Origin: Streptomyces sp. ML-6 | Lineage (GTDB): Bacteria; Actinomycetota; Actinomycetes; Streptomycetales; Streptomycetaceae | DNA: 64,000 bases | Assembly (NCBI RefSeq): GCF_030116705.1 | Contig: NZ_JAOTIK010000002.1 | Span: forward strand, 620,001-684,000 | Direction of reading: 5' to 3' | In this document: positions 1 through 30,259 of the stretch, piece by piece | Numbering within the stretch: the stretch's first letter is position 1 | Layout of the letters: the number at the start of each line of letters is the position of its first letter | Program-made: the position numbers and the translations under genes | The notes under the pieces: model-generated | What the model was told of the DNA's origin: nothing | Database searches by the model: none | What the model saw: the letters and a program-made list of their open reading frames with translations, nothing else

Positions 1-56
1 ATCTGCTGAGCTGCGGCCTGCGGGTCGAAGCGCGGCGAGCTCTCGGCGCTGCTCAT
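1..56 (-). CDS. P4-family primase/helicase, N-terminal fragment cut by window edge
   Basis: Only the first 18 codons are in the window. The ATG at 56 overlaps the stop of the upstream prim-pol gene as ATGA. The visible residues MSSAESSPRFDPQAAAQQ resemble the start of the complete primase-helicase encoded at 28347-29861, which shares the FDPQA segment and the same position directly after a prim-pol gene. By that analogy this is a replicative SF3-type helicase/primase. Almost all of the protein lies outside the window, so the assignment rests on synteny and a short match. Confidence 0.7.
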   Translation of the reverse strand, partial: MSSAESSPRFDPQAAAQQ

Positions 57-1204
57 GAACGTCCCCTGAGGTGGAGCGGGCGGGCGGACCCTACGGCGAG
101 CGCCTCGTCGACGATCGTCTCGTTCCTGGCCTGCTGCCAGGGCCTGGCGTAGTGGGCGACCCGGACGAGCCGGTCCCGGACGTCGGGCAGTTCCAGGTGG
201 CCTGCGGCGGCCAGACCACCGGCCGTGTAGGCGGCGCGGTTGAGCTTCTCTGAGAACGCGGTGCCCTCCGACGCGGCCGCGCATCCTGCGACCTCCGCGA
301 TCAACGGATCCAGGACGTGCTCGGCCGAAGCCGCTCGGCGCCCGTGTGCGGGCCGTTCCGAGCTTTTCCGGAACTCGGGGGCGGGGGACAGGTCCTGAGG
401 CTTCTGGGGCGTCACGACGTGCCCTGTACGGACCAGTTCGTCCCGGAGCCAGACGGGGAGGTCCGCAGGGATCCTGGCGGTCCCCACGGCCCGGTAGGCG
501 CCCTGGGGAACACGGGTGCTCGGGGCGACGATGTAACCGCCGTCGGCCCGTACGTCGACCTGCCAGGCGAGCGCGGCATTCCGGCCCGAGCCCGTCGAGC
601 ACCGGAAACGGGTCGAGGGGTCGGGGTTCCGGTACCAGATGTGCAGCCCTCCGGAAGGCGTACGAACCCGGAGCGTCGTGGTGTCCTCGGCCGGATCGGG
701 CGCGCCTCGGAGGGCCGCCAGCAGCGCCAGCGTGTCGTAGCCGGAGGCCAGCCCGTCGAGGCTCACCTGCTCGGGGATCGGGATGCCCGGCAGCAGCCGT
801 GACCGGTCGGCGACCGGGGCCTGGTGGGCATCGATGTCGATCACGAGCAGATCAGCGGGTCCGCAGGCCACTCCGACCCCGGCAGCGGGGGTGTCGGTCC
901 ACCACTTGTCAATGCGCTCGGGGTCGGTCGTCGCCGCGTGGAAGCCGTGGCAGGGACGTCCTGCGGGCAGGCACGGGCAGGTGGACGGCTCGTGCCGGTG
1001 GGCCCGGCAACGGGGGCAGTTGCCCGCGGGAGTCTTCCGTCCCGGAGCGAGGGGGTGGACGGGCCAGCCTTGCGCGGCGCACCAGCGCGCGACCGCGTGC
1101 GGAAGTACGGACCTGCCTGGGGCTGCACGCTCCCGTTTTTCGCCTTCGCGCGGCACGCGGACCGTCCTCGTCACATCTCGGTTGCTCGATCGTTCCCGGG
1201 CCAC
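53..1204 (-). CDS. Bifunctional DNA primase/polymerase (prim-pol), copy 1
   Basis: This is a 383-residue protein of the prim-pol (AEP-type) family, which primes and extends DNA during plasmid or integrative-element replication. Catalytic motifs are visible: the acidic DID motif in LLVIDIDAH near residue 122, the SGGLH motif near 183, and VDVRADGGYIVAP near 215. A Cys cluster around residues 63-77 (CPRC...CPC) looks like a zinc site, which the second copy at 27238 also has. The gene overlaps the helicase gene downstream by ATGA. The GTG start at 1204 has no clear ribosome binding site, and GTG codons some 10-17 residues inside are alternatives. Prim-pol initiators of this kind are known from actinomycete integrative elements, but no integrase or Tra gene adjoins it here. 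Confidence 0.85.
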   Translation of the reverse strand: MARERSSNRDVTRTVRVPREGEKRERAAPGRSVLPHAVARWCAAQGWPVHPLAPGRKTPAGNCPRCRAHRHEPSTCPCLPAGRPCHGFHAATTDPERIDKWWTDTPAAGVGVACGPADLLVIDIDAHQAPVADRSRLLPGIPIPEQVSLDGLASGYDTLALLAALRGAPDPAEDTTTLRVRTPSGGLHIWYRNPDPSTRFRCSTGSGRNAALAWQVDVRADGGYIVAPSTRVPQGAYRAVGTARIPADLPVWLRDELVRTGHVVTPQKPQDLSPAPEFRKSSERPAHGRRAASAEHVLDPLIAEVAGCAAASEGTAFSEKLNRAAYTAGGLAAAGHLELPDVRDRLVRVAHYARPWQQARNETIVDEALAVGSARPLHLRGRS

Positions 1205-1225
1205 CGGTTGTTTGGGTGACCCACT

Positions 1226-2015
1226 GTCAGGGACCGAAGGGACTGTAGTGCAGAAGAGAGTCTAGGGCCCAGCATCCGAAAAATGAGTCGCCCGGGTCCG
1301 CGTGCCGTTTCTATCAGTTTCCTTGGTCCCTTGAGTCCCTGGGGGGCAGGGACGTGTTCCTTCATGCCTGGCACCCGGGGCGGCGGGGCACTCCCCCGAT
1401 CCGCAGTCGGCCAGAGGAGCACCTGAGGAGAAGAACAACCTGCGGGGCAGGGCTCGCCGGCTGGGCACCTTCACCCTAGGACCGCAAGCCAGGGACCGGC
1501 CGTATCAAGCACGCACGACACCAGAAGGCCGGTCGGAGGGCCTGAGAGAAAGGCGGACAGGGGCGGAACAGGGGCCAGGGACCAAACGGCCAGGGGCTGA
1601 CGAAACTGGTCCCTGAGCTCGGTCCCTGCGCGTTTTTGCAGGTCAGAGCCTTTCACCACATCCAAACAGGGACTCTAGGGACTCAACTCGGCAATTATGA
1701 GCTACACCTGATGTATGTGTGACACGCGCCCGCGCGTATGAACCCCTATCTCTTGTCTACGTCATAATTGCGCTTTTCAGTCCCTACGGTCCCTGCCGGA
1801 TCGGGCTACACCGCTCTGACCTGCGAAAACATGCAGGGACTGAAGTTTTTCACCGAGGGACGCCAGACACTTCAGTCCCCCGAGTTTGGTCCCTGGCCCC
1901 TTTCGGTCCCTCGGCAGAAACCTGGTCGGGGTGCTTACGGCCTGTGCGAGGTGAAGGGACCGAACCGGGCGGGAACCCGGCCGAAGCCGGGAAGGATCTT
2001 TCAGTCCCTGCGGCC
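1226..2015. repeat. Iteron-like GGGAC/GTCCC repeat field, putative replication origin 1
   Basis: About 0.8 kb without a gene, filled with the pentamer GGGAC or its complement, often as pairs about ten bases apart. Examples are GGGACCGAAGGGACT at 1230-1244, its inverted kind at 1325-1340, GGGACTCTAGGGACT at 1669-1683 and AGTCCCTACGGTCCC at 1779-1793. Further single or paired copies run to about 2010. The paired spacing near one helical turn and the position upstream of a replication gene fit initiator-binding iterons. Function is inferred. Confidence 0.6.
1691..1771. other. A+T-richer core with inverted repeat inside origin 1
   Basis: Between the paired iterons at 1669-1683 and 1779-1793 lies the least G+C-rich stretch of the region. 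It is bounded by perfect 10-bp inverted arms, GCAATTATGA (1691-1700) and TCATAATTGC (1762-1771), and contains a short GCGC-rich centre. It looks like an unwinding element or a promoter/operator of the replication genes. Origin 2 near 26924-26984 has the same plan. Confidence 0.45.
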
Positions 2016-2096
2016 CCGGCGGGCTTCAGTCTCTGCCCGAGGGGCGGCACAGAAGGCACTGCAATCCCTGCTGGACCGCGAAGATCCACAGCCTCG

Positions 2097-2117
2097 ACCT
2101 ATTACGTCGTAATAGGT
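2097..2117. repeat. Palindromic site 1 of seven (parS-like)
   Basis: Perfect palindrome with 10-bp arms ACCTATTACG and CGTAATAGGT around one central T. It is the most distant member of a family whose core is TATTACGNCGTAATA. The other members lie at 7616, 7697, 10243, 10273, 10741 and 10778, ahead of parA. It is unlike the chromosomal Streptomyces parS (GTTTCACGTGAAAC). A partition-protein binding site is the likely role, by inference. Confidence 0.55.
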
Positions 2118-2223
2118 ACGGCGGCGAAGGAAGCACCTCTCCCCCGCCTGTCTCGACCGTCGCTCCACGAGGGCCGGAGAGAAAGACGGTCCGAACAATC
2201 AAGTACGTGGCTCTCGTAGATCT

Positions 2224-2628
2224 GTGCCTGGCATAGTGATCAACGTGATCGGACGTCTGTTCTCTCTCGTCATCGACTGCCCCGACCCCTCCGAGCTTGC
2301 GGGCTTCTACGAGAGCCTGCTGTCGCTGCCGAGAGTGGAGGAGACGACCGACTACGTAGTACTCAGAAGTACGACAGGCGCGGAGATCGTGGCCTTCCAA
2401 CGTGTCGAGGATTTCCGCCCGCCCCGCTGGCGCGACCCGGACCGCCCGGCCCAGGCGCATGTGGATGTGCTGGTCGACGACCTGGACCTCGCCGAGCCGA
2501 AGGTACTTGCACTGGGTGCCACGTTGCTCGAAGGGTCGGACAAGCCGATCGGCTATCGCGTATACGCAGACCCAGTGGGGCACCCCTTCTGCCTCGTCAC
2601 ACACGAAAGCGTGATGCTCGGCGAGTAA
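2224..2628 (+). CDS. VOC-family (glyoxalase/bleomycin-resistance fold) protein
   Basis: A 134-residue single-domain VOC protein. The start LFSLVIDCPDPSELAGFYESL is the usual first strand-helix of the fold, and the second half ends with the typical YADPVGHPFCLV strand carrying a metal-ligand-like segment. Family members include glyoxalases, dioxygenases and drug-binding proteins, and the substrate cannot be told. The GTG at 2224 is the longest start; GTG at 2236 and 2245 are possible, and the conserved domain begins only at about residue 10. It stands alone, with no operon partner. Confidence 0.75.
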   Translation: MPGIVINVIGRLFSLVIDCPDPSELAGFYESLLSLPRVEETTDYVVLRSTTGAEIVAFQRVEDFRPPRWRDPDRPAQAHVDVLVDDLDLAEPKVLALGATLLEGSDKPIGYRVYADPVGHPFCLVTHESVMLGE

Positions 2629-2652
2629 AGCCCCGCGCGCCCGGGCCGCTCC

Positions 2653-2672
2653 CCTGCTGGGCAGGCTTTTTT
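2653..2672 (+). terminator. Weak hairpin with T-run after the VOC gene
   Basis: A short stem CCTGC/GCAGG with a 3-base loop is followed by CTTTTTT, 25 bases after the stop of the VOC gene. The stem is short, so termination strength is doubtful. Confidence 0.35.
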
Positions 2673-2729
2673 CCGGCCCCGGGAGTCCTGGGACAGCTGC
2701 CTTCTGGCAGGGCTTGGCATACCGCCCGG

Positions 2730-3240
2730 ATGGGGGTACGGGCCGTGGAAGCGGCGCGGCGTTGGCTGGCTGATCAGGGCGTCAGCCAGGTACGCGAGGG
2801 GTGGATGAGCGACGAGAGGCCGGGCGAGCTTCTGACGGCCGACCAAGTGACGCATTCCTGGGTTGGTGATGTGTTCGCCGAAGACCTGGACGCAGCAGAT
2901 CAGGTGCAATTGGCTTTTTGACTGCTGGACCTCCTCGACGAGTACTGGGTCACGTGCGAGATCCGTTTCGCGAACGAGAGTGCGGAGGCCCCCTTGCCGG
3001 CCGATGTGCTGTGGGACGGCTACCGGCAGCGTTTGGAGGCGGAGCGGGATGCCGAAGCCATCACGTACTCGCTGTGGGTGGACTGGTTCGAAGACCACAC
3101 CACTTCCGCGACGGCCTTCACCGAAGTACTCGGCAATGACGCGGACACTCGCCACCTTGCAGAACTGCGTCATGTGCTCACGGCAGGGCACAAGAACCAC
3201 TACCGCAGCCCCGGCGCCTGGGGCGATGCGGTTCGCTCCT
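2730..3240 (+). pseudogene. Hypothetical protein gene interrupted by an in-frame TGA
   Basis: An open frame starting ATG at 2730 encodes 63 residues ending DQVQLAF, then TGA at 2919-2921. The same frame continues without a gap as LLDLLDEYWVTCEIRFANES and further protein-like sequence (WDGYRQRLEAERDAEAITY, then ELRHVLTAGHKNHYR) to at least 3220. The composition on both sides of the stop looks like one acidic helical protein, so this is probably a gene with a nonsense mutation. The downstream part has no stop until 3902, inside the opposite-strand SUKH gene, so the true 3' end is also lost or shifted. The family is not recognised. Confidence 0.45.
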
Positions 3241-3362
3241 GCTCCGGAGCCTTGCGGGGCAAGCCCGTCGGGATGGTGGTGGCGGCGCCCCGGCCGAAGG
3301 TGCGGAGGGTGGATGACACCGACTCCCCAGAGAACGGCGTGTCCTTGCCCGGCCCATCTTGG

Positions 3363-3899
3363 CTATTCGTTCTCGAACTCCCGGGCAGAGGTGAGTCCTT
3401 TGATGAAGAAGTGGAAGTTCGGTGTGAGGGCCAGTTCAGAGTTGTCCTCCGCATCCAGCCAGGCGACGGACGGTTCCCCGTGCCGGCCGCAGCTCCGGTA
3501 GTCGAGCCCGATCCAGTAGTGCCCGTCCCCCGAGATCAGCACCACTGCTGCGGGCAGCCCCCATTCTTCGACCAGGTACGGGCTGTCGAGCATGGACAGC
3601 ATCCGTTGACGGCGGCCGATGCCCATCACGCTGTCGAACGGGACGTGGTCAGGACTCCAGGAGGCCGGTCGACTTACGGGGAAGGCATTCCGGCTGTCGC
3701 TGACCCGGCCACCGTTCTGTGCGCGGAGCAGGTCCAACAGAGAGTCGGGGAGTGTGACGTTCAGAAGCTGCTCGGCCTCCGCGACCGCCCGGTCGGTCAG
3801 GGGCGGCTGTACTCCGTAGTCGCTGCTGGTATCCCAGAAAGAGGGCTGAAGATCCTCGAAGTGCGCCATGACCGGCATCGTAGGAGCCGGGCCCGACAT
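3363..3899 (-). CDS. SMI1/KNR4 (SUKH) family protein
   Basis: About 178 residues. The pattern LTDRAVAEAEQLLNVTLPDSLLDLLRAQNGG is the SUKH signature: a helix, then LP.s..dLlr.qNGG. It is followed by WGLPAAVVLISGDGHYWIGLDYR and PSVAWLDAED, the typical GDG..W..LDYR core. SUKH proteins in bacteria are mainly immunity proteins against polymorphic toxins. No toxin gene is seen beside it, so it would be an orphan immunity gene. Starts at 3899, 3878 (MPVMAHF) and 3869 (MAHFEDL) are all possible; none has a clear ribosome binding site. Confidence 0.75.
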   Translation of the reverse strand: MSGPAPTMPVMAHFEDLQPSFWDTSSDYGVQPPLTDRAVAEAEQLLNVTLPDSLLDLLRAQNGGRVSDSRNAFPVSRPASWSPDHVPFDSVMGIGRRQRMLSMLDSPYLVEEWGLPAAVVLISGDGHYWIGLDYRSCGRHGEPSVAWLDAEDNSELALTPNFHFFIKGLTSAREFENE

Positions 3900-3937
3900 T
3901 GATACGTGTAGCAGGTTCCGGTGGTCGTGGCTCAGGG

Positions 3938-4352
3938 GTGACTGACGTCCCCGTCCTGGACCTCGCCGCCACCGAGAGCAGCCCCGGCCTGCGTGCCGAG
4001 TTCGGTGTCGGCCCCGACACCACGGCCCAGCTCCTGGTGACCGGCGGAGGAAACCCCGACTGCCTGCGCACTGCGGCATCCTTCGTGGCGCTCTGCGGCG
4101 CCGCGCCCGTCCCCGACTCCCAGCGGCAGGACCAACTGCCCCCGCCTCCCCCGAGGCGGTGACCACAAGGCCAGCGCCGCTCTCCACCGGATTGCTCCCG
4201 TCCGCAGGTCCAGCGACGCCCGCACCTGCGACTACGCCGCCCGGCAGACCGCCGCCGGACGCACAAAGAAAGAAATCGTCCGCCTGCTCAAGCGGGCGAT
4301 CGCCCGGGAGGTCTTCCGCTACCTCACCACACTGATCACCGCCCCGGAGGCT
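3938..4352 (+). pseudogene. IS110-family transposase C-terminal remnant
   Basis: Two frames together read as the C-terminal IS116/IS110/IS902 domain. The first is LRAEFGVGPDTTAQLLVTGG followed by CLRTAASFVALCGAAPVPDS. After a frameshift near 4150 the second reads GGDHKASAALHRI and AARQTAAGRTKKEIVRLLKR, then AIAREVFRYLT. The N-terminal DEDD catalytic half is missing, so this is a dead fragment. It lies just before a second, better preserved IS110 gene, which suggests a hot spot for this IS family. Confidence 0.75.
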
Positions 4353-4598
4353 CTAATGGGGCTCGTCGGGCCGTGGGGAAGACTACGGTCCGTAGCCGCC
4401 AGTAGGTGAGCACTCGTAGCCTCCGAGCCATTGCGAGTTCTGAGGTCGGACCGTGCCCCCGCTGGTCGGCCGGGAGGCCTGACTGCTGATGGGATGGCGT
4501 GCCTGCCGGGCAGTTGGGCGTGAGCACTTGATCCGTTGGAGAGCGAGCCGTGCCTTCCGCAGGCTGCGCATCATGATGGGACGAGAGCGAAGGGGCGG

Positions 4599-5820
4599 GT
4601 GCTGGTGCTGTTCACCGGCGATGGCTGGGCCGAAGACCATCACGACATCGAGGTCCGGGACGCGACGGGCCGCAGGCTTGGTACCGCGCGGCTACCGGAG
4701 GGCGTGGAGGGCATCGCGAAGCTGCACGCCCTCGTCGCCCGCCACGGCGGCGAGGACCTGGAGCCCGGGCAGGCGGCGGTCGGGATCGAGACCGACCGCG
4801 GCCCGTGGGTGCAAGCGCTGATCGCGGCCGGTTACCGCATCTGCGCGGTCAACCCCCGTCAGGCGGCACGGTTCAAAGAACGGTACGGAACCTCAGGGGC
4901 CAAGAGCGACAAGGGCGACGCCCACGCGCTCGCGGACATGGTCCGCATCGACGGCGACCAGCTGCGGCCGGTGGCCGGGGACAGCGGCCAGGCCCAGGCG
5001 ATCAAGGTCGTCGCCCGTGCGCACCAGACTCTGATCTGGGAACGCACCCGCGCCTTCCAGCGGCTTCGCAACACGCTGCGCGAGTACTTCCCCGGCGCGC
5101 TGAACGCCTACGCGGGTCTGGCACTGACCAGCACCGACGCGCTGGAACTGCTGGTCAGGGCTCCGACGCCCGAGACTGCGGCGAAGCTGACGAAACCGCA
5201 GATCACCGCGGTCCTGGCCCGGCACCGCCGCCGCAACCGGGACCAGCGGGCCGCCGCGATCCAGGCCGGCCTGCGCGAGCCCCAGCCCGCCATTGCCGCC
5301 CCGGCTGCCGCCGCCCACGCCGCGGCGGCAACCGCGCACGCCAACCTGCTGATCGCGCTGAACGAACAGACAGCCGCGCTGGAAGAGCAGGTGAGCGCGC
5401 ATTTTCTCGCGCACCCGGACGCTGAGATCCACCTGTCGATGCCCGGCACCGGCGAGATCACCGGCGCCCGGGTGCCGGCCGAGTCCGGCGACGACCCCAC
5501 CCGCTACACCTCCGCCAAGGCCCGCAAGAACTACGCCGGCACCAGCCCGATCACCCGCGCCTCCGGCAGGACCCACGCCGTCCACGCCCGCCACGCACGC
5601 AACGACCGCCTCGCCGACGCCCTCCACAAACAGGCGACGGCCGAACCGACGAACCTGAACACCCGTCACCCCTCTCTGACCAGCTGATCAGCACCTCTCG
5701 CACAGCGGGGGAACCTCAAACCGCCTCGTCGGCATCCTCCACGGATGCCTCAAGACCCGCACCCTCTACGACGAAGCCACCGCATGGTCACACCACGCAA
5801 CCCTCCCAGCCGCAGCTTGA
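4599..5820 (+). pseudogene. IS110-family transposase gene with C-terminal deletion/frameshift
   Basis: From the GTG at 4599 (purine-rich AGCGAAGGGG just upstream) the frame encodes an IS110 DEDD transposase: VLVLFTGDGWAEDHHDIEV at the N terminus, VGIETDRGPWVQALIAAGY, RYGTSGAKSDKGDAHALADM and the C-domain start SMPGTGEITGARVPAESGDD, then YAGTSPITRASG. After ADALHKQAT the frame degenerates and stops at 5687. The expected final segment reappears in another frame as NRLVGILHGCLKTRTLYDEA ending at TGA 5818-5820. The intervening region with the conserved Ser segment is lost, so the enzyme is very likely inactive. IS110 elements lack clear terminal inverted repeats, so the ends are not defined. Confidence 0.8.
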
Positions 5821-5837
5821 CACCGCTGCGGCATGGG

Positions 5838-6071
5838 ATGTCTGACCTCCGGTCTGTGCGCCAGGCCAAGAACATCACCCTGACCACCGTCGCCGAGTAC
5901 TTCGGTGTCTGGCCGACAGTGATCTCCTGCATCGGACGAGGCACACGCCGCGACGACGGCCTCGCCCACGCTTATCGGGACTGGCTCACCGTCGCTCGAC
6001 CGCTCTCCTGGGACCGTGCTCAGTCTGTCCAGACCAGAACTGCCAGCCCACGTTGGCCGGCGGTGAGATAG
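5838..6071 (+). other. Small helix-turn-helix-like reading frame or remnant after the IS
   Basis: The frame from ATG 5838 reads MSDLRSVRQAKNITLTTVAE, YFGVWPTVISCIGRGTRRDD and then YRDWLTVA. This resembles a short XRE-like helix-turn-helix (ITLTTVAEYFGVWPTVISCI), with a recognition-helix-like segment around residues 25-40. Its last 50 bases overlap the convergent DUF1877 gene. It may be a remnant of a mobile-element protein rather than a working gene. Confidence 0.35.
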
Positions 6072-7615: not shown

Positions 7616-7636
7616 ACCTATTACGGCGTAATAGGT
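7616..7636. repeat. Palindromic site 2 (parS-like)
   Basis: Arms ACCTATTACG and CGTAATAGGT around one G, identical in its arms to the sites at 2097, 7697 and 10243. It lies upstream of the methyltransferase gene. Confidence 0.6.
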
Positions 7637-7689: not shown

Positions 7690-7724
7690 GGGCTCGACCT
7701 ATTACGGCGTAATAGGTCGAGCCC
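7690..7724. repeat. Palindromic site 3, extended 35-bp perfect palindrome
   Basis: The common 21-bp core (7697-7717) is flanked by GGGCTCG on the left and CGAGCCC on the right. This makes a perfect palindrome with 17-bp arms around one G. Site 4 at 10236-10270 shows the same extension length with a different flanking sequence, which suggests selection for a hairpin or paired binding rather than for the flank sequence itself. Confidence 0.6.
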
Positions 7725-10235: not shown

Positions 10236-10270
10236 GGGCGGAACCTATTACGGCGTAATAGGTTCCGCCC
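10236..10270. repeat. Palindromic site 4, extended 35-bp perfect palindrome
   Basis: The core is 10243-10263, with arms ACCTATTACG and CGTAATAGGT around G. It is extended on each side by GGGCGGA and TCCGCCC, giving 17-bp perfect arms. It lies ten bases before site 5. Confidence 0.65.
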
Positions 10271-10272: not shown

Positions 10273-10289
10273 CTATTACGCCGTAATAG
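10273..10289. repeat. Palindromic site 5 (parS-like)
   Basis: CTATTACG and CGTAATAG around a central C, with 8-bp arms. Its centre is 28 bases from that of site 4, so the two could be bound cooperatively. Confidence 0.65.
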
Positions 10290-10740: not shown

Positions 10741-10757
10741 CTATTACGCCGTAATAG
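10741..10757. repeat. Palindromic site 6 (parS-like)
   Basis: CTATTACG and CGTAATAG around a central C. It lies about 125 bases before the parA start and may also act as an operator. Confidence 0.65.
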
Positions 10758-10777: not shown

Positions 10778-10794
10778 CTATTACGGCGTAATAG
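10778..10794. repeat. Palindromic site 7 (parS-like)
   Basis: CTATTACG and CGTAATAG around a central G. It is the site closest to parA, and its centre is 37 bases from that of site 6. Confidence 0.65.
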
Positions 10795-10879: not shown

Positions 10880-12148
10880 ATGAGTATGCCATCCACCTCG
10901 AGCGACCGAGTGAAAGTCGTCTCCAAGCTGCCGGGATGGCTCCGGCAGAACCTCAAGGTCAGAACCGCGCAGCTAGGGATCGAGATCCAGACCGCGGTCG
11001 AGCAGGGAATCGCCGCCTGGGTCGGGCTCGCGTCGGCGACGACCGCGGTCGACACCGCGGGAGCCGAGTCCTACTCCACCTTCCTTCCTCCGGCTCAGTG
11101 GGAGGAGTTCAGGGGCATCGCCGAGGACCGTCGGGTTTCCCTCATCCAGGGGCTCGCCCAGTCCGTGCAGCTCTGGCTCGACACCAACCCGGCTCCCGAC
11201 GTGAAGCGGCCCGACATCACCCGCCGCATCGTGGTGTGCAACCAGAAGGGTGGTGTCGGCAAGACGGCCATCACGGCAGGGGTGGGGGAGGCCCTGGCCG
11301 AGGACTCCAACACCCTGCACCCTGTCCGTGTCGCCAAGGCCCTGGCCACCGCTCTGCGTGCCGGCGAGGCGGACGGTGGCACGGCGGGGGCGGGCAGTGC
11401 CGATCCGCTCGACATCGAGAAGCTTCCCGGCCTCGGACTCCGCGTCCTCCTGGTGGACTTCGACCCCCAGTGCCACCTGACCAACCAGCTGGGGGCCGCC
11501 CCTCTGGCCATGAACGGTGACAGCCTCACCAATCACATGGCGGGCGACCCGAAGGGCGACCTGCGGGATCTGATCGTTTCCGTCGACGAGGAGCATTTCG
11601 GCGGCCGGCTGCATCTGCTGCCCGCCTGCCACGACGCCTTCCTCCTCGACGTCCGGCTGTCGGCGGTGCGGGCCCGTGAGGCGGCTCTGGAGCGTGCCTT
11701 GCTGCCGCTGGAAGCCGATTACGACGTCATTCTTGTGGACTGCCCGCCCAGCCTCGGCCTCAGCATGGATGCCGCCGCGTACTACGGGCGACGTCGTGAC
11801 GGTGAGCGGCCCGGCCAGTCCGGAGCCCTCATCGTCGTCCAGGCCGAGGACAGCTCCGCCGACGCCTATGACCTGCTCACCAACCAGATCGAGGACCTTC
11901 GCGGCGACCTCGGTCTCGACATCGACTACTTGGGCATCGTGGTCAACCTGTACGACGGTCGTCGCGGATACATCGCGACCTCGTCGCTCCAGGGCTGGAT
12001 CGACATAAAGGATCCACGGGTCGTCGGCCTCATCAACGACCTCAAGGAACAGAAGGAAGCCGTGCGGATGAAGCAGCCGCTGCTGAGTTACGCGCCGACT
12101 TCGCAGCAGGCCGTAGGCATGCGTGCGCTCACCCGGGAGATCTCATGA
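10880..12148 (+). CDS. parA: ParA-family partition ATPase with N-terminal ribbon-helix-helix-like region
   Basis: 422 residues. The P-loop ATPase begins near residue 115: RRIVVCNQKGGVGKTAITAG carries the deviant Walker A KGGVGKT, LRVLLVDFDPQCHLTNQLG is the second motif, and YDVILVDCPPSLGLSMDAAA is Walker B. About 45 extra residues lie between Walker A and the DFDPQ motif. The first 105 residues contain two segments of ribbon-helix-helix pattern, VVSKLPGWLRQNLKVRTAQL and TFLPPAQWEEFRGIAEDRRV. ParA positions plasmid or chromosome centromeres by ATP-dependent nucleoid binding. The stop overlaps the parB start as ATGA. ATG 10880 has an AAGG upstream, and ATG 10886 is an alternative. Confidence 0.9.
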   Translation: MSMPSTSSDRVKVVSKLPGWLRQNLKVRTAQLGIEIQTAVEQGIAAWVGLASATTAVDTAGAESYSTFLPPAQWEEFRGIAEDRRVSLIQGLAQSVQLWLDTNPAPDVKRPDITRRIVVCNQKGGVGKTAITAGVGEALAEDSNTLHPVRVAKALATALRAGEADGGTAGAGSADPLDIEKLPGLGLRVLLVDFDPQCHLTNQLGAAPLAMNGDSLTNHMAGDPKGDLRDLIVSVDEEHFGGRLHLLPACHDAFLLDVRLSAVRAREAALERALLPLEADYDVILVDCPPSLGLSMDAAAYYGRRRDGERPGQSGALIVVQAEDSSADAYDLLTNQIEDLRGDLGLDIDYLGIVVNLYDGRRGYIATSSLQGWIDIKDPRVVGLINDLKEQKEAVRMKQPLLSYAPTSQQAVGMRALTREIS

Positions 12149-13434
12149 GCAAGGCGGATCAGCTCGGAGCCGGACGGTTCGGAGGTGGTGCCCGGCCGGT
12201 CAGCGCGCGCCGTGCTGCCATCGGTGCCGCCACCGGTGTACCGACCGAACGGGTCGCCCCGCCGACCCGGCTGCCGGTCACACGCATCAACTCCAACCCC
12301 GACAACCCGCGCACCACACTCGGAGATCTGACCGAACTTGCGGGCAGCCTCGCGGAGCACGGTCAGAAGCAGGCCATCACGGTCATGAACCGCGATGCCT
12401 ATGTCAGGGCCAACCCCGAACGCGAGCGCGACCTAGACCCTGACACGACTCATGTCGTGGTGGACGGCAGCAGCCGCCTGGCTGCTGCCCGCGAAGCCGG
12501 TCTCACCCATCTGAACGTGATGGTCGACGACGAACAGGGGAGTGACGGTGATGCCATCCTGGAGTCCGCGCTCGTCGCGAACGTCCACCGCAACGACCTG
12601 GACCCGCTGGACGAGGCGCGGGCCCTGCAGCGGCTGCTGGCCATTCATGGATCGCAGGTCAAGCTCGCCAAGCGCCTTCGTAAATCGCAGGGTTGGGTAT
12701 CGCAGCGGCTCGCCCTGCTCAATCTGACCCCCGAACTTCAGGCTGTCGTGGGAGAAGAACCCGTCGAGCTGTTGCGTACCGTCGCCAAGCAGCCGCACGA
12801 CCGCCAGGAAGCCGCGCTTGAGGAACTGAAGGCGGAACGGGCCCGCAAGGAAGAGGAACGGGCAGCGGCCGCCGCGGTCCCGGCCCCCGCGCCGGCCCCG
12901 GCACCGGCCCCCGTCCTGCCGCCGGAGGAAGCTCGGGAACCCGCAGCTCCGGAACCCGCAACTTCAGCCCCTGCGGCTTCAGACCCTGAGGCTTCAGGCC
13001 CTGTGGCTCCGGTGTCGGCATTGGTGGCGGCGGTGGTGCCGGAATCGGCCCCTGCCCCATCTCCGGTTCCAGTACCAGCCCCCGCCCAGGCAGCCGCCCC
13101 GGTCGTTCCCACCTCCACCCACTCGGCGCCAGTTCCGGCTCCTGCTTCGGCTGCGGCGGCGGCCAAGTCCGAAGCAGGGGAGGGGCTTCGCGCTTCGCAG
13201 CCCGAGAGTGTGTCGGAGCGGGGAGAGTCCTCCGTACCGGAGCCCCGGTCCGACAGCGCGTCGCCCACCGCCGAAGCGGGCTCGGGCGAGTCCACGTCTT
13301 CCGCGTCCCGGCCGCTGCCGTATGACGACGGCGCTTTCATCGCCCGGCATTTGATCCACAAGATGGGAGAGGCCGAGTTCGACCGGATGTTGGACATCCT
13401 CAACACCCATAGGCGCGAGCGGGCGACCTCGTAA
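12145..13434 (+). CDS. parB: ParB-family partition protein
   Basis: 429 residues. The N-terminal ParB/Srx domain includes LPVTRINSNPDNPRTTLGDL, the DGSSRLAAAREAG box and LVANVHRNDLDPLDEARAL. The helix-turn-helix follows (SQVKLAKRLRKSQGWVSQRL, about residues 170-190). A long Ala/Pro-rich linker (about 235-390) leads to a C-terminal helical segment FIARHLIHKMGEAEFDRMLD that may dimerise. ParB binds parS sites and stimulates ParA. Expected targets are the seven TATTACG palindromes upstream of parA. The linker is unusually long for chromosomal ParB, and the parAB unit is plasmid-like. Confidence 0.9.
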   Translation: MSKADQLGAGRFGGGARPVSARRAAIGAATGVPTERVAPPTRLPVTRINSNPDNPRTTLGDLTELAGSLAEHGQKQAITVMNRDAYVRANPERERDLDPDTTHVVVDGSSRLAAAREAGLTHLNVMVDDEQGSDGDAILESALVANVHRNDLDPLDEARALQRLLAIHGSQVKLAKRLRKSQGWVSQRLALLNLTPELQAVVGEEPVELLRTVAKQPHDRQEAALEELKAERARKEEERAAAAAVPAPAPAPAPAPVLPPEEAREPAAPEPATSAPAASDPEASGPVAPVSALVAAVVPESAPAPSPVPVPAPAQAAAPVVPTSTHSAPVPAPASAAAAAKSEAGEGLRASQPESVSERGESSVPEPRSDSASPTAEAGSGESTSSASRPLPYDDGAFIARHLIHKMGEAEFDRMLDILNTHRRERATS

Positions 13435-23844: not shown

Positions 23845-24280
23845 CCCTCCAAGGGGTCGATGCCGCACCTGGACGGTCCGGCAGTGCACGGCTCAACGAC
23901 GCGACAGAGGAATCGAACACGCTCGATTTCGGACTCGTTGGAGCCCTTGAATCCCCTGGGCTCGAACGTGCAATCGCCGTACTGGAGCCGTCGTACGACA
24001 CCGCCGGGTGGCCGAAACGCCGAACGCGAGACGCATGTGACGTACGGGGTTGGCCTGCCGGCTTGGCGTACCCGGCCCCGGGGCCTGGCATGCGGCGCCG
24101 ACGTTCGGCCCGGTGGACGAGGTGCCGGCGTCTGCGCGATCGGAGCGACCGAAGCGACCGAAGCGACTCTGGAACCGGAATATCGAAAGCCGGATCGCGA
24201 GCGGTGGCATTGACCGCGATCCGGCTTGCGGGGCCTCTTGCAAACCTCTTGCCGGGCCCGGCCGCGGAACTCCGCGACTT

Positions 24281-24925: not shown

Positions 24926-25037
24926 GCCTCGATTCTGTCAGCCCCGATCGAACAGACCTCCAGTACGGACCTCCAATACGGACTTTCCATACGGGCTTCC
25001 AATTGCGAGAGTTCCGGGTCCGGCCGTCACGCGCCGG

Positions 25038-25697
25038 TCACTTGCCCAACTCCGCGGCCAGGGCGGCGCGGCGGGCGAACACCGCTTCCTTGGCCCCGGC
25101 CATCTCCCGGAGGGCGGTCTTCCGTTCCCGCTGGGCGAGCCGGTCCAGGTAGAGGTGGCCGTGGAGGTGGTCCGTCTCGTGCTGGAGGCACCGGGCGAAG
25201 TAGCCCCGGCCCTCGATCACCAGTGGGTTGCCGTCCTTGTCCCGGCCCCGGACGACGGCGCGGTCGAGGCGGGGCACCACGCGGTAGGGGCCGGGGACCG
25301 ACAGGCATCCCTCGGACTCCTCGACCAGTACGCGGTGTTCGGCCGCCACCTCGTCCAGGACGGGGTTGGCGATGTGCCCGACGTGCCGCACGCCCCACTC
25401 GTCCGTGATGTCCCAGACGAACAGCTGCAGGTCCACGTCGATCTGGTTGGCCGCCAGCCCCGCGCCCTCCGCCGCCCGGTTCGTGGCGAACATGTCGTCG
25501 ATCAGCCGTGACAACTCGGGCGTGCCGAAGCCGGTGACCTCCTGGCACCGTCGGCCGAGGATCTCCTCGCCGACGACGGTGATGCGGCGCACCGCTCCCC
25601 GTTCCACCTCCGGTGCGAGCCGTGGATACGAATCGACGGGCTCGCCCTGCACCCGCACCCGACGGTCCTGCGGGGTGTCACCGAACCGAACAGCCAT
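25038..25697 (-). CDS. def: Peptide deformylase
   Basis: 219 residues. All three motifs are intact: GAGLAANQI near residue 80, EGCLSVPG near 128 (metal Cys) and QHETDHLHG near 170 (two His metal ligands and catalytic Glu). It removes the formyl group from nascent proteins and acts at the ribosome. Streptomyces usually have several def genes. This one is divergent from an ArsR-like regulator with a palindromic operator between, so it is probably regulated separately rather than housekeeping. An extra deformylase can protect against deformylase inhibitors; that is a possibility only. Confidence 0.93.
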   Translation of the reverse strand: MAVRFGDTPQDRRVRVQGEPVDSYPRLAPEVERGAVRRITVVGEEILGRRCQEVTGFGTPELSRLIDDMFATNRAAEGAGLAANQIDVDLQLFVWDITDEWGVRHVGHIANPVLDEVAAEHRVLVEESEGCLSVPGPYRVVPRLDRAVVRGRDKDGNPLVIEGRGYFARCLQHETDHLHGHLYLDRLAQRERKTALREMAGAKEAVFARRAALAAELGK

Positions 25698-25776
25698 GGA
25701 GCATCAACGCCTTCCGTACGCGCCCGGGCCGGCCGGAGAAGCACCGTGGCCGACCGCGGTTCAGCTTGACCGAATG

Positions 25777-25803
25777 CTTTGCAAAGTAGCACTCTTTGCA
25801 AAA
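25777..25803. promoter_or_regulatory. Tandem CTTTGCAAAG operator in the def/ArsR promoter
   Basis: The perfect 10-bp palindrome CTTTGCAAAG (25777-25786) is followed 17 bases later, centre to centre, by CTTTGCAAAA (25794-25803). The second copy touches the regulator start codon. It is the likely binding site of the adjacent winged-helix protein, controlling both divergent genes. Confidence 0.6.
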
Positions 25804-26420
25804 TGAGTGAGGAGAACCGTAGACCCGCGCCCACGGACCCGTCCCCGCGCCCCACCCGGCACACGCTCCCGGACCATCCGGTGCGCATCGCCCTGCTGGA
25901 CCTGCTGGCCGAGGTCGGTACCGTCACGTCCACCCGGGCCGCCGCCCGCCTCGGTCTCAGTTCGGGGCTCTGCTCCTTCCACCTGCGCCAGCTCGCCCGG
26001 CACGGGCTGATCGAGGAGGTGCCGCACAAGGACGGGCGGACCCGGCCCTGGCGGCTGCGCTGGGAGGACTCCCAGCCGTCCGAGGGGGAGACGCCGGAGG
26101 AGTTCGACGTACTCGCGCGCGGGCTGGAGGACGAGAGCTACCAGCACTGGCTGGCCCACCGGGACCTGGCACCGGCCGAGTGGCGGCACGACGAGTCCTT
26201 CAGTGCCGTGGTCCACCTCACCCCGGAGGAGATGGCCGAACTCGCCGCCTCCATCCGCCTCCTGCTGGCCGGCTACCACGAACGGGACCGCCACCCCGCC
26301 GCCCGCCCGCCCGGCACCATGGCCGTGGCTGCGGTCACCCGGCTGTTCCCCCTGCTGAACGAGCAGGAGCGGCCCGGCGCCGGCGGCAGCGGTGACGGCG
26401 GCGCAGCGGACGAATCATGA
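25803..26420 (+). CDS. ArsR-type winged-helix regulator
   Basis: 205 residues. The winged helix at about 25-90, VRIALLDLLAEVGTVTSTRA, ARLGLSSGLCSFHLRQLARH and GLIEEVPHKDG, is of the ArsR/SmtB pattern without its metal-binding cysteines (one Cys in the recognition helix). The rest is helical, with HLTPEEMAELAASIRLLL resembling the effector helix of related Streptomyces regulators. ATG 25803 is chosen because the operator overlaps it and the conserved domain follows. It is expected to repress itself and the divergent deformylase gene. Confidence 0.85.
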   Translation: MSEENRRPAPTDPSPRPTRHTLPDHPVRIALLDLLAEVGTVTSTRAAARLGLSSGLCSFHLRQLARHGLIEEVPHKDGRTRPWRLRWEDSQPSEGETPEEFDVLARGLEDESYQHWLAHRDLAPAEWRHDESFSAVVHLTPEEMAELAASIRLLLAGYHERDRHPAARPPGTMAVAAVTRLFPLLNEQERPGAGGSGDGGAADES

Positions 26421-26690
26421 GCGGGCCCGGCCGCATTCGCCCCGAGGCCCTCGCGCACGCCTGGAGGCCGGCCGGCCCGCTCCGATCGTCCGGACGGACG
26501 GAGGGCAACCACCTGGTGGGCGGTGGGGCCTCGGGCCCGACGGCCGCAGGGGCTGCCTCTCTCTTCCTGCCAGGGGCGGGGCGGAGGGCTTCAGCTCTGC
26601 ATCGCTCGGCGAACCGGGGTCATCACCAAGACCATCTCGATGGACGCATCGGTGAGGTGAACCCCCTGGTGCGGCGGGGCAGCGACCGGA
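26421..26690. other. Region before origin 2, no gene seen
   Basis: About 270 bases with high G+C and no supported gene. Short open frames on both strands lack ribosome binding sites and family features. Confidence 0.3.
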
Positions 26691-26695
26691 GCTAC

Positions 26696-27222
26696 CCAAG
26701 CGACTGAAGCGACTCTGAACCCGGAATTCCGAATTCCTGCGGAAGAGGCCGCGCGGGGGCGGGCTTCGGTCGCTGGGTTCGGTCGCTGGATCGCTGAGTC
26801 GCTGGGGGTCATCGGGGCAGCGACTGAAGTCGAGCGACCGAAGAACTTCTCGGTCGCTTCCAGAGTTTTTTCAAAAGCCCAGGTCAGAGCAGGTTTTCAG
26901 GGGCCATAGCGACTGGAGCGACTGAAGTATCGGGTATATGAGGACATTCGCGCGTGCGCGTGTGCGTCATATATACGGGCCTTGAGTCGCTTCAGTCGCT
27001 GTTTGGGGTTTTGTAAGTCTCTGACCTGGGCTTTTTCTCAGCTACTGAGAAAGCGACCGAAGCGTTCCGAGTCGCTGGTGCGTCGATGCTTCAGTCGCTG
27101 ATGACCGTTTCGTCGGCCGGATGCGCTTCTCGCCGACACGATGAAGCGGTTTCTCGCCCAGAGCCCCCCTCGGTAACCCGGGCTTCGATAATCTATGTTC
27201 GTCGTTGAGTCGCTTTGGTCGC
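26696..27222. repeat. Iteron-like GCGAC/GTCGC repeat field, putative replication origin 2
   Basis: A gene-free region with many GCGAC pentamers in pairs about ten bases apart: GCGACTGAAGCGACT at 26700-26714, GCGACTGGAGCGACT at 26909-26923, the exact inverse AGTCGCTTCAGTCGC at 26985-26999, and further copies near 26820, 26855, 27050, 27080, 27088 and 27204. It precedes the second prim-pol gene directly. The repeat differs from that of origin 1 by a single base in each half (GCGAC against GGGAC) and keeps the same spacing. Confidence 0.65.
26924..26984. other. A+T-richer core of origin 2
   Basis: The core between the inverted iteron pairs contains TATATGA (26935-26941) and TCATATA (26968-26974 region) as inverted arms around a GCGCGTGCGCG-type centre. 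The plan matches the core of origin 1: outer iterons, inner A+T arms and a central GCGC-rich piece. Confidence 0.45.
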
Positions 27223-27237
27223 TGATGGGGGGTGCGC

Positions 27238-28350
27238 ATGGCGCATGAGCTGGACGTTTCACCCAGCGACCGGGAGCGACCCGGGTCTCCGCCGGTAGTC
27301 GCTCCGCGCAGCGTGGATCTTGCCAGGTGGTGTGCCAGCCGTGGCTGGCCGGTCCATCCCTTGACACCGGGCCGCAAGACCCCGACGGCGAACTGCGACA
27401 GGTGTCGGCAGCCCGGCCACACCCACAAGGGGTGCGCCTGCATCCAGGCCGGTCGCTGGTGCCACGGCTTCCACGCCGCCACCCTGGACTTCGCCCGCAT
27501 CGAGCAGTGGTGGTTCAACCACCCCGGCCTCGGGGTCGGCGTCGCCTGCGGCCCCGCCCACCTGGTGGTCATCGACATCGACGCGCACCGGCAGCAGCCC
27601 CCGGACCGGGACCGCCTGCTGCCGGGCATCCCGATTCCCCGCAGCGTGGACCTGGGCGGCCTGGCCAACGGATTCCACACCCTGGGCGTGCTGGCCGCCC
27701 TGCGGGGCGCCGTCAGCCCGGCGGACGACGAAACGACCTTGCGTGTACGCACGCCGTCCGGAGGCCTTCACGTGTGGTACCGCGCCCATGGCAGCCACCG
27801 CTGGCAGTGCTCCGCGGGTTCGAGCAGCACCCGCGCCCTGGCCTGGCAGGTCGATGTCCGGGCCCACGGCGGGTACATCGTCGCGCCCGGCACCACCACG
27901 GCCGCGGGCACCTACACGGCCATCGGCCCGGCACGCGAACCGGCGGCCCTCCCCGACTGGCTGGCCCGCGAGCTCGCCCGTACCGGGCACCTCCCACCCG
28001 CTCACGTCCCCGCACCGCGTCCCGTGCCCCCCAGGGCCCGGCAGGCGGTGCTGGCGGCCGGTGGCGGCCGGGACGCGGCGGGCCGGGCCCTGGCGAAGGT
28101 CCTCGGGGAGGTCGCCGCCTGTGCGAGCGTCCCCGAGGGGGCGGCCTTCTCCGCGAAGCTGAACCGGGCCGCGTACACCGTCGGGGGACTGGTCGCGAGC
28201 GGCCACCTCTCGGCGGACGCCGCGGAGCAGGCACTGCGGGACGCCGCCGAACAGGCCCGCCCCGGCCAGGAGCGACGCTACGGCGCCATCATCCGCAGCG
28301 GTCTGAACGCGGGCCTGCTGCGCCCACTGTCCCCGGGAGGCCGCGCGTGA
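27238..28350 (+). CDS. Bifunctional DNA primase/polymerase (prim-pol), copy 2
   Basis: 370 residues from ATG 27238, behind a GGGGGG ribosome binding site (GTG 27232 is an alternative). Catalytic motifs are HLVVIDIDAH (DID), SGGLHVWY and VDVRAHGGYIVAP. A zinc-like Cys cluster, NCDRCRQPGH then CAC, lies near residue 50. It is clearly paralogous to the gene at 53-1204 over its whole length, sharing for example WPVHPL.PGRKTP, RLLPGIPIP and AFS.KLNRAAYT. It primes and copies DNA at the adjacent iteron origin, by family inference. It overlaps the helicase gene by GTGA. Confidence 0.9.
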   Translation: MAHELDVSPSDRERPGSPPVVAPRSVDLARWCASRGWPVHPLTPGRKTPTANCDRCRQPGHTHKGCACIQAGRWCHGFHAATLDFARIEQWWFNHPGLGVGVACGPAHLVVIDIDAHRQQPPDRDRLLPGIPIPRSVDLGGLANGFHTLGVLAALRGAVSPADDETTLRVRTPSGGLHVWYRAHGSHRWQCSAGSSSTRALAWQVDVRAHGGYIVAPGTTTAAGTYTAIGPAREPAALPDWLARELARTGHLPPAHVPAPRPVPPRARQAVLAAGGGRDAAGRALAKVLGEVAACASVPEGAAFSAKLNRAAYTVGGLVASGHLSADAAEQALRDAAEQARPGQERRYGAIIRSGLNAGLLRPLSPGGRA

Positions 28351-29861
28351 TCTCCCGGGACGACAACGCACTCTTCGACCCGCAGGCCGTCGCCGCGCAG
28401 ATCCTCGCGCAGGTCCCCACGCCCCTGCCCGCGCAGGGCGGCGATCCCGGCCCGGGCCAGTCCCCGGACGGCGAGGCCACCGCGGCGGGCCTGCTGCCCG
28501 ACACCCTCACCGACCGGGGCAACGCCAAACTGTTCGTCAAGCTGTACGCCAACGACTACCGGCACGTCCCCGGACTCGGCTGGTACCGCTGGGACAGCAC
28601 CCGATGGCAGATCGACGAGGACGACACGGTGATCTGGGCCGCCGGGGACCTGGCCGAGAGCATCGCCTCCGCGGACCCGCGCGGCGTGTTCACCGGCGCG
28701 GCGCTCCAGCGGCACCGCAGCCGCGCGCTGAGCACCAGCGGCATGAACGCGATGCTCACCCAGGCCAAGTCCGCCCCCGGCATGGTGCTCAACGCGGCGC
28801 GGCTGGACGCCGACCCGTACGCGCTGTGCACGCCCTCGGGGATCGTCGACCTGCACACGGGGCTCATCAGGAAGCCCGACCCGAACAAGGACTTCCACTC
28901 CCGCTCCACCAGCGCGGCCCCGCAGGCCGTGGCCACCCCGCGCTGGCACCGGTTCCTCACCGACACGTTCGGTGCGGATGCCGACGGCGAGGAGATGGTC
29001 GACTTCCTGCACCTGCTGCTCGGCTACTCCATCACGGGGGACGTGGGCGGGCAGGTCATGCCCTTTCTGTTCGGTTCCGGCAAGAACGGCAAGTCGGTAC
29101 TGCTGGACGTCCTGATGAAGCTGCTCGGCGACTACGCGGACGCCGCCCCGCCCGGCTTCCTGATGTCCCGCCCCTACGAGGGGCACCCCACCGACCTGGC
29201 CGAACTGCACGGCCGCAGGGTCATCGTGTGCAGCGAGGTCAAGCCCGGCGACAAGTTCGACGAGGCCCGGGTCAAGCTCCTCACCGGCGGCGACCGCATC
29301 AAGGCCCGCCGCATGCGGCAGGACTTCTTCAGCTTCGAGCCCACCCACAAGCTGTGGCTGCTGGGCAACCACCGCCCGGAGGTCGGCACCGGCGGCTTCG
29401 CGTTCTGGCGCCGCATGCGGCTCATCCCGTTCGAACGCGTGGTCTCCGACGACCGCAAGATCGACAACCTGGCGGACATCCTGGTCACCGAGGAAGGCCC
29501 GGGAATCCTCAACTGGCTCATCGAGGGCGCCCGTCGCTACCTGGCCGGGGAGAAGGTCCTCACCGGCCCCGAACGGGTCCGCATCGCCACGACCGCCTAC
29601 GCCGAGACCGAGGACCACACCGGCCGCTTCATCAGCGAATCCTGCCGGGTCGACCCCGAGCTGAGGGCGGAACAAGCAGCGCTCTACGCGGCGTACAAGT
29701 CCTGGTGTCACAATGAGGGTGCCCCGGCCGTTTCGTCGCGAGCCTTCGCGGCCAGGGTCCGCGAGACGGTTGGACTGGCGTCGCCCAAGGAAATGATCCT
29801 GTCCAACCAGCGGAAGTACTACCCGGGCATTGGACTGCTCGCTGATCAGGAGACAACATGA
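28347..29861 (+). CDS. P4-family primase C-terminal/SF3 helicase protein
   Basis: 504 residues from GTG 28347, overlapping the prim-pol stop (GTGA). The helicase core lies near residues 200-420: Walker A FLFGSGKNGKSVLLDVLMKL, Walker B-like RRVIVCSEVKPGD, HKLWLLGNHRPEV as motif C with the sensor Asn, and FWRRMRLIPFERVV with arginine-finger residues. This is the D5/P4-type helicase that loads and unwinds at plasmid or phage origins, here working with the separate prim-pol protein. The left-edge copy at 1-56 has the same gene order. The stop overlaps the next start as ATGA. Confidence 0.9.
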   Translation: MISRDDNALFDPQAVAAQILAQVPTPLPAQGGDPGPGQSPDGEATAAGLLPDTLTDRGNAKLFVKLYANDYRHVPGLGWYRWDSTRWQIDEDDTVIWAAGDLAESIASADPRGVFTGAALQRHRSRALSTSGMNAMLTQAKSAPGMVLNAARLDADPYALCTPSGIVDLHTGLIRKPDPNKDFHSRSTSAAPQAVATPRWHRFLTDTFGADADGEEMVDFLHLLLGYSITGDVGGQVMPFLFGSGKNGKSVLLDVLMKLLGDYADAAPPGFLMSRPYEGHPTDLAELHGRRVIVCSEVKPGDKFDEARVKLLTGGDRIKARRMRQDFFSFEPTHKLWLLGNHRPEVGTGGFAFWRRMRLIPFERVVSDDRKIDNLADILVTEEGPGILNWLIEGARRYLAGEKVLTGPERVRIATTAYAETEDHTGRFISESCRVDPELRAEQAALYAAYKSWCHNEGAPAVSSRAFAARVRETVGLASPKEMILSNQRKYYPGIGLLADQETT

Positions 29862-30259
29862 GCGCCCTCATCGCAGAGGACGAGATCAATCATGAAGTCG
29901 ACCTCGTCTGGCTGGAGGACATCGCCGACCTCGACTACGTACGACAGAGCCTCGACCGGCTGCCGACCCGCCGGGGCAAGCCCGCCTACCACCGCGACGG
30001 TCGCATGGTCGGGTACACCCTGCTCGGTCCCAAGGCGAAGGCGTCGCGCTCGTCCGGTACGTTCCGTCGCCGGGTCTTCTGGCTGCTTCCGCACGACCGC
30101 GACAGCGAACCGGAGGGCCTGTACGCCATCGGGGCCCCCGCGGAGGCGGTGGACCCGCGCACGCTGGAGCCGGGCCGCAAGGGCCGCAAGACCGCCCGCT
30201 CCGAGGGCGGCCCGCCGTCCCCGGCGATGCAGGAAATGGGCATAACCCTCCCGCTGTAG
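29858..30259 (+). CDS. Small protein translationally coupled to the replication helicase
   Basis: 133 residues. ATG 29858 overlaps the helicase stop as ATGA, so all three genes form one tightly coupled replication operon. The sequence is basic and soluble: VDLVWLEDIADLDYVRQSLD, LPTRRGKPAYHRDGRMVGYT and FRRRVFWLLPH. The C-terminal 50 residues are Arg/Lys/Pro-rich. No family is recognised. A DNA-binding accessory or regulator of the replication cassette is a fair guess from context only. Confidence 0.7.
   Translation: MSALIAEDEINHEVDLVWLEDIADLDYVRQSLDRLPTRRGKPAYHRDGRMVGYTLLGPKAKASRSSGTFRRRVFWLLPHDRDSEPEGLYAIGAPAEAVDPRTLEPGRKGRKTARSEGGPPSPAMQEMGITLPL

Follow-up and report, generated by a model that had tools for sequence, protein, structure and literature searches.

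Two Prim-Pol/helicase cassettes with iterons differing by one base on a large, probably plasmid-borne Streptomyces contig

The window analysed here is a stretch of 64,000 nucleotides from Streptomyces sp. ML-6 (contig NZ_JAOTIK010000002.1, positions 620,001 to 684,000, forward strand). It is part of a 994,925-bp contig (C2) in a genome of 9.1 Mb whose largest contig is 7.78 Mb. We infer that contig C2 is a plasmid; no inverted terminal repeats were found between the first and last 18–20 kb of contigs C2 and C5. Two cassettes, each composed of a Prim-Pol gene, a D5/P4-family helicase gene and a DUF6009 gene, are located 26 kb apart at ∼621 and ∼647 kb along the 994.9-kb contig (Table 1). Cassette 2 consists of three overlapping genes reading rightward. 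Cassette 1 reads leftward from position 1204, and inside the window only its Prim-Pol gene (53–1204) and ∼50 bases of its helicase gene are present. An earlier note on this DNA had described a prim-pol/helicase pair occurring twice: the two cassettes are real, but the first copy is incomplete within the window, and the second has DUF6009 as a third gene and a Prim-Pol start at 27232. The same note had spoken of two related replicons, which does not hold because both cassettes are on one contig.

The Prim-Pols of the two cassettes are 55% identical and belong to PF09250 (130 and 122.5 bits, cut-off 22.8). The cassette 2 helicase belongs to both TIGR01613 (282.7 bits, cut-off 108.7) and D5_N (PF08706, 120.9 bits, cut-off 22.4). 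Only two D5_N matches were detected in the whole genome at E ≤ 0.001, and these are the two cassette helicases. Six further Prim-Pol matches are present elsewhere in the genome (G000, contigs C1 and C5), none of them with a D5_N partner.

Table 1. Positions of the cassette genes, iteron fields and neighbouring features (window coordinates unless marked L009)
Feature	Position	Strand	Remarks
DUF6009 gene, cassette 1	left of window, near L009:11921-12274	-	58% identical to cassette 2 DUF6009
Helicase, cassette 1	left of window, L009:12483-14051	-	60% identical to cassette 2 helicase
Prim-Pol gene, cassette 1	53..1204	-	383 aa; PF09250 E 1.4e-37
Iteron field 1, AGGGACY code	1229..2010		four 9-bp tandem pairs: 1230(+), 1326(-), 1669(+), 1780(-)
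Core of origin 1 (proposed)	1668..1796		convergent iteron pairs around 95-bp stretch; CAATTATGA / TCATAATTG arms; alternating CG-rich tract
ParA-like gene	10880-12148		between cassettes, 9.7 kb from Prim-Pol 1
ParB-like gene	12145-13434		between cassettes, next to ParA-like gene
Displaced iteron cluster	24145..24176	+	GCGACCGAA triplet at 24145-24168, outside field 2
Iteron field 2, AGCGACY code	26681..27281		four 9-bp tandem pairs: 26700(+), 26909(+), 26986(-), 27209(-)
Core of origin 2 (proposed)	26908..27001		convergent iteron pairs around 61-bp stretch; TATATGA / TCATATATA arms; alternating tract CGCGCGTGCGCGTGTGCGT
Prim-Pol gene, cassette 2	27232..28350	+	372 aa; PF09250 E 2.9e-35
D5/P4-family helicase, cassette 2, proposed initiator	28347..29861	+	504 aa; D5_N, DUF5906
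Predicted C-terminal winged-helix domain, proposed iteron reader	29616..29837	+	helicase residues 424-497
DUF6009 gene, third in cassette 2	29858..30259	+	PF19472 E 4.9e-63

Each Prim-Pol gene is preceded by a field of short repeats, and the two fields differ by one base. Counted on both strands, region 1200–2220 holds 20 GGGAC and 2 GCGAC, and region 26600–27300 holds 20 GCGAC and no GGGAC. Against 1000 dinucleotide-preserving shuffles per field, GGGAC in 1205–2220 (20 observed) exceeded the shuffled 5.2 ± 2.1 (maximum 16), and GCGAC in 26600–27231 (18 observed) exceeded 2.9 ± 1.6 (maximum 8). Four 9-bp pairs were counted in each field, compared with 0.013 (GGGAC) and 0.001 (GCGAC) in shuffles, which bears out the earlier claim of two paired-repeat fields set apart by a single base. 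Short direct repeats above chance beside rep genes, as in an iteron-type replicon, are thus present. The repeats had been taken for paired pentamers; the pairing and a 9-bp period are there, but the unit, A-G[G/C]GAC-Y-GAA, is longer than a pentamer (the two types are also written as AGGGACTGA and AGCGACTGA sites). The layout, described earlier as the same in both fields, is common to them in the convergent core only, and the order of the outer pairs differs. The final iteron sites of field 2 fall within the beginning of the Prim-Pol gene. Across the 9.1-Mb genome a degenerate pair pattern gave 23 matches vs. 52 for its reversed control, i.e., it is not commoner, and 10 of the 23 are in the two cassette regions. 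Further single 9-bp GCGAC pairs occur in the window at 4906 and 39847.

To see the codes in relatives, we collected homologous cassettes. At E ≤ 1e-5, tblastn found a relative of the cassette 1 Prim-Pol in 357 plasmid records (335 Streptomyces) and of the cassette 2 Prim-Pol in 353 (332 Streptomyces). The first set combined 80 of 140 confirmed genome-contig loci (among the matches listed), a genus search (82/295 genomes matched at E ≤ 1e-40) and selected plasmids; its 200 cassettes were reduced to 185 after removal of duplicates by Prim-Pol sequence. One of four hexamer codes was found upstream of Prim-Pol in 165 of these 185 (107 AGCGAC, 52 AGGGAC, 5 CGGGAC, 1 AGGGGC; 20 untyped), so the upstream comparison proposed in the earlier note came out in its favour. 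Among the untyped rest, the upstream stretch is short in one, and two to five AGCGAC words remain in several others. The set was enlarged with a family search (90/394 genomes matched at E ≤ 1e-60) and with 17 plasmid records, whose loci made up 101 rows in which some cassettes recur. These records were picked among the best matches and among those matched at three or four places, and are not a random sample. The resulting 219 distinct typed cassettes comprise 139 AGCGAC, 72 AGGGAC, 7 CGGGAC and 1 AGGGGC. A class-wide search (14/394 genomes matched) added one AGCGAC cassette from outside the family, and the eight loci titled other than Streptomyces (L061, L069, L073, L074, L076, L078, L086 and L088) are all AGCGAC.

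Among the relatives, the bases flanking the switched position have the same consensus in both types, A-GCGAC-Y-GAA at 2177 GCGAC sites and A-GGGAC-Y-GAA at 1036 GGGAC sites. Sites on the same strand are most often spaced 9 bp apart (471 and 225 cases, respectively, vs. 75 and 33 for the next spacing). The sole AGGGGC cassette (L154) is on a very long branch, and its genome (G224) carries an AGCGAC cassette on another contig. No iteron fields of these codes were found upstream of distant Prim-Pols (∼40% identical). Two such Prim-Pols of another family (L337 and L338, 37–39% identical) have a GGACAA-type upstream repeat, 11 each over both strands; this GGACAAC-type repeat is possibly a further iteron system. 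A DUF6009 frame follows in 164/185 cassettes, and several of the remainder are cut by a contig end. The helicase-DUF6009 junction is a 4-base overlap in the AGCGAC values shown and mostly a 90–202-base gap in AGGGAC cassettes; a second iteron set in that gap was considered and rejected, as at least two GGGACY were present in just 1 of 44 AGGGAC cassettes.

The convergent core is shared by most relatives. When the core was taken to be whichever convergent gap held the longest alternating purine-pyrimidine run, of at least 9, it was found in 206 of the 219 typed fields (128/139 AGCGAC, 70/72 AGGGAC, 7/7 CGGGAC, 1/1 AGGGGC), and both flanking sites were paired in 186. With alternation ignored, convergent tandem pairs 20–160 bp apart were present in 158/165 fields (103/107 AGCGAC, 51/52 AGGGAC, 4/5 CGGGAC, 0/1 AGGGGC). 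For the three main codes, median lengths of the longest alternating run were 19 to 20.5, vs. 6 in random windows, which are a lenient control because cores were picked by that run. The consensus core ends are cAAGgTccgGgTATATG and GtGtGCGcGTGtGCGTcATAtATAG.ga.CTTc for AGCGAC and cAA.ttcccaaTTatgA and GcTcATAATtgggaatTTg for AGGGAC. The spacing between inner sites falls into groups, 53–65, 68–75 and 83–84 in AGCGAC cores and 90–98, 103–107, 118–121 and 130 in AGGGAC cores, and shifts between short and long spacing numbered 5 and 6 on the tree. Since the arms hold fixed offsets from both ends, the extra length sits between them, within the alternating stretch. A common period of 11.2–11.4 bp fitted the spacing best (107 representatives). 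One helical turn per step is the simplest reading, and the period is suggestive only, because the null merely blurs the modes.

Trees of both proteins were compared with the codes. In the Prim-Pol tree (FastTree, 184 of 185 rows; L219 was left out because of a stop upstream of its annotated start in the automatic translation), AGGGAC, CGGGAC and AGGGGC (the G-like codes) form one clade of 60 rows (3 untyped; SH-like support 95) nested among AGCGAC lineages. The typed codes changed three times in total on this tree, and C vs. G-like changed once. A helicase tree built with the C-terminal part removed (235 rows; untyped cassettes were left out here and in the residue comparisons) gave identical counts (1 and 3 changes), and AGCGAC and CGGGAC are each on one side of a branch with support 100. 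Iteron code and initiator type agree without exception in the 235 helicases. As read from both trees, the main C/G switch is single and old; AGCGAC is probably the older code, judging from a rooted tree with long branches.

At least 14 alignment columns of the helicase are split perfectly by code (99 vs. 52 sequences), and those in the predicted winged helix include 460, 473, 474, 485 and 488. The 7 sequences of the CGGGAC clade show further changes at wing positions 486, 488 and 491. The predicted winged-helix fold matches a DNA-bound domain. P4 alpha protein was not among the matches listed, and no comparison aimed at it was made.

Contigs with more than one cassette were examined for their combination of codes. 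The genus and family searches gave 24 contigs with at least two matches. On 23 of them both copies could be typed, and every one of these contigs pairs AGCGAC with a G-like code; on the 24th (G179:C3), one copy is AGGGAC and two are untyped. Where a genome carries typed copies on separate contigs, their codes differed in 9 of 9 cases, and three more such genomes hold an untyped copy (left out were the second contigs of G242 and G147, the fragmentary copies of G168, and the distant second copies in G289, G350 and G446). Random matching of equal numbers would give 23/23 with a probability of 1e-6, ancestry being ignored in this figure. At least two full matches were present in 12 of the 17 selected plasmid records. 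NZ_CP108366.1 carries AGGGAC, an AGCGAC-type copy (only 5 words) and CGGGAC, and NZ_CP109476.1 carries AGGGAC, AGCGAC and an untyped copy. Prim-Pol distances of the two types were weakly correlated across 38 pairs (Mantel r 0.149; 82/5000 permutations as high). These pairs were picked by hand, with one AGCGAC-type and one G-like member per replicon, third copies dropped, and one AGCGAC-type member untyped by its field. Simple co-inheritance of the pairs was rejected on this correlation, co-inheritance being weak though not absent, and partner lineages therefore seem to have been largely exchanged. In one record (L228), AGCGAC and AGGGAC cassettes stand in tandem with genes for a FAD monooxygenase, a ScbR-type regulator and an oxidoreductase between them. 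Similar genes lie between a helicase-DUF6009 pair and an AGGGAC cassette in L227, a record with only one Prim-Pol match.

We compared these loci with known systems, as described in the accessible parts of the papers cited. Streptomyces linear plasmids commonly replicate from a central replicon consisting of a helicase and its iteron, and other large replicons are called SCP1-like (PMC13152386); a megaplasmid with a central primase/helicase-type origin was also described (PMC5331497). The SCP1-like central replicon (rep1/rep2) resembles the cassettes in its helicase/primase-type rep genes and iterons, and is found on large linear plasmids together with parAB (PMC13152386; PMC5331497). This likeness is by description only, and two cassettes with different single-base codes were not found reported there. 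The C-terminal domain of the SCCmec Cch2 protein, a D5/Primase_Cterm helicase, binds direct repeats with the iteron AAGTG, and SaPI Rep binds as two hexamers (PMC7581432). The helicase here has a predicted C-terminal winged helix (424–497), which may be a counterpart of the C-terminal DNA-binding domain of that type. The iteron fields lie upstream of the Prim-Pol gene, not directly downstream of the helicase gene as in SaPI/Cch2-type systems. The origin of Cch2 is downstream of its gene and has three iterons, and neither a convergent paired core nor a two-code pair was found in the accessible text on it. In SaPI5 Rep the primase and helicase domains are fused and the origin is downstream, unlike the cassettes here.

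Among actinobacterial elements, pWTY27 (repA/repB), likewise from Streptomyces, encodes a predicted prim-pol, RepB, and has inverted iterons that are bound in two blocks (PMC3583192); it is likened by description only, and its repeat, GTGGGAAC, differs. In actinomycete integrative and conjugative elements (ICEs), Prim-Pol PF09250 adjoins a replication gene (Prim-Pol/RepPP modules), and one ICE has Pox_D5/D5_N (PMC3218068). These are integrative elements, and the word iteron is absent from the accessible main text of that paper. Relatives of the helicase are encoded in 1066 phage records, all at <60% identity (best ∼44%), many of them from Mycobacterium, Microbacterium and Gordonia phages. The earlier note knew of no described origin of this plan. 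The exact paired A-G[N]GAC plan, single-base codes, the core and paired cassettes were indeed not found in the literature searched, most subscription papers being outside reach, so that absence is no proof. The general plan is not new, because a D5-family helicase that binds direct repeats with a five-base iteron through its C-terminal domain is known from Cch2 (PMC7581432, accessible part). The kind of origin is known from SaPI5 Rep and Cch2; the one-base codes and the dual arrangement look new.

The system is real and orderly, and the assignment of both repeat fields to replication cassettes is supported. We think it probable that both loci are complete SCP1-like iteron-type origins on one large replicon, each with the helicase as initiator and its own one-base code. 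The C-terminal winged helix of the helicase would bind the A-G[N]GAC-Y-GAA iterons of its own cassette. The convergent paired sites would load two helicase rings face to face across the alternating AT/CG core, which would then open for priming by Prim-Pol. One iteron base, matched by residues of the wing and the recognition helix, would give each cassette its own code; each initiator would therefore act on, and be titrated by, its own origin. Such a one-letter rule, as the sequences suggest, could keep two start systems from interfering in one cell. The best-supported parts of the proposal are the four codes, the invariable association of code and helicase, and the core common to the fields; function and non-interference are the weakest. 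More tentatively, the single-base codes may be incompatibility groups, such that a cell stably holds one cassette per code and rarely two alike. Large plasmids may then become lasting two-origin composites by combining codes. A few wing residues would read the code, and the two iteron pairs would keep a constant helical phase on either side of an alternating tract that may form Z-DNA.

Several observations weigh against the proposal of two helicase-initiated origins, and some of them would fit an explanation by inherited drift of the codes, with both fields still recognised by either initiator and each cassette serving as a backup for the other. The C/G switch was a single event, fixed by clade. 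Repeated co-evolution for this base was therefore rejected on both trees, and the initiator-iteron co-evolution claimed in the earlier note survives as agreement of code and helicase type (235/235), most of which reflects shared ancestry. The residue-code association is confounded by ancestry for the same reason. Perfect columns are only modestly enriched in the linker and winged helix (11/100 vs. 17/380 elsewhere, p 0.017), many of them lie outside the winged helix, and the enrichment of CGGGAC-clade columns in the winged helix is likewise modest (8/77 vs. 22/403, p 0.089). Positions 488 (Q/S) and 491 (Y/H) vary within one code while the iteron is unchanged and so cannot by themselves determine the code, and the helicase model is poor at residues 263–355. 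Twenty of the 185 homologues are untyped, nine of them distant Prim-Pols. The two words differ by one base, and words of the opposite code persist in each field type: AGCGAC fields show no depletion of AGGGAC (48 observed vs. 45.6 expected). Finally, 2 of the 12 named multi-cassette plasmids hold two same-code cassettes: NZ_CP137525.1 has two AGCGAC copies (Prim-Pols 75% identical) and one AGGGAC, and NZ_CP109331.1 has each cassette twice in an apparent inverted duplication. We nevertheless regard drift with shared recognition as unlikely. Against it are the lack of any exception among the helicases and the finding that typed pairs from the genus and family searches are never of the same code. 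The third code arose with additional wing changes, GCGAC is clearly depleted in AGGGAC fields (82 vs. 124 expected), and GGGAC is slightly depleted in AGCGAC fields (227 vs. 262.5 expected).

The iteron reader could instead be Prim-Pol, which has a Cys/His-rich stretch, or DUF6009, with the helicase columns merely travelling along. Both proteins separate by type nearly fully (best columns JS 0.94 and 0.92, respectively), DUF6009 is present in most cassettes, and in pWTY27 the iteron beside the predicted prim-pol RepB is bound by RepA, a hypothetical protein (PMC3583192, accessible part). Neither protein has a perfect column, the predicted fold of DUF6009 is mostly beta and matched nothing in the PDB at E ≤ 0.001, and the helicase has both the predicted winged helix and a precedent; we consider another reader improbable. 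It is somewhat doubtful that only one cassette works as an origin and that the other is left over, silent, from a plasmid fusion. Large linear plasmids do fuse, and a single cassette can suffice, because several complete plasmid records with a single full cassette exist (W01, W06 and W11). However, the genes are open and the cores intact in both cassettes of this contig, and the two-code state recurs on the 23 contigs. Lastly, the fields might serve chiefly as operators in autoregulation and copy control, with replication beginning elsewhere; in favour of this, each Prim-Pol gene has a tandem pair immediately upstream (1230 and 27209). The conserved core with its alternating tract, AT arms and stepped spacing suits an origin better, and this explanation is very unlikely.

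If the proposal of two helicase-initiated origins is correct, these cassettes provide a natural series of four initiator/iteron codes, neighbours being one base apart, with ∼200 sequences on both sides. They make it testable how an initiator changes its target while keeping its function, and what decides which plasmids share a cell. Large Streptomyces plasmids, many of which carry antibiotic gene clusters, could also be typed by these codes, and two-plasmid vector systems are a possible use.

An Rfam scan of 1–31000 gave no match above gathering scores. The displaced cluster at 24145–24176, 2.5 kb off, has three GCGACCGAA-like units whose sequence, with its flanks, resembles the distal edge of field 2 (∼26687–26733); the cluster may be a short duplicated stretch or a titration site out of place. 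The palindrome TATTACGNCGTAATA occurs in seven exact copies (2100–2114, 7619–7633, 7700–7714, 10246–10260, 10274–10288, 10742–10756 and 10779–10793) situated between origin 1 and the parAB genes, compared with 0 in 100 shuffles. It is present in 42 of 342 loci (some overlapping), with a maximum of 8 per locus, and the copies are likely the parS sites of this plasmid family.

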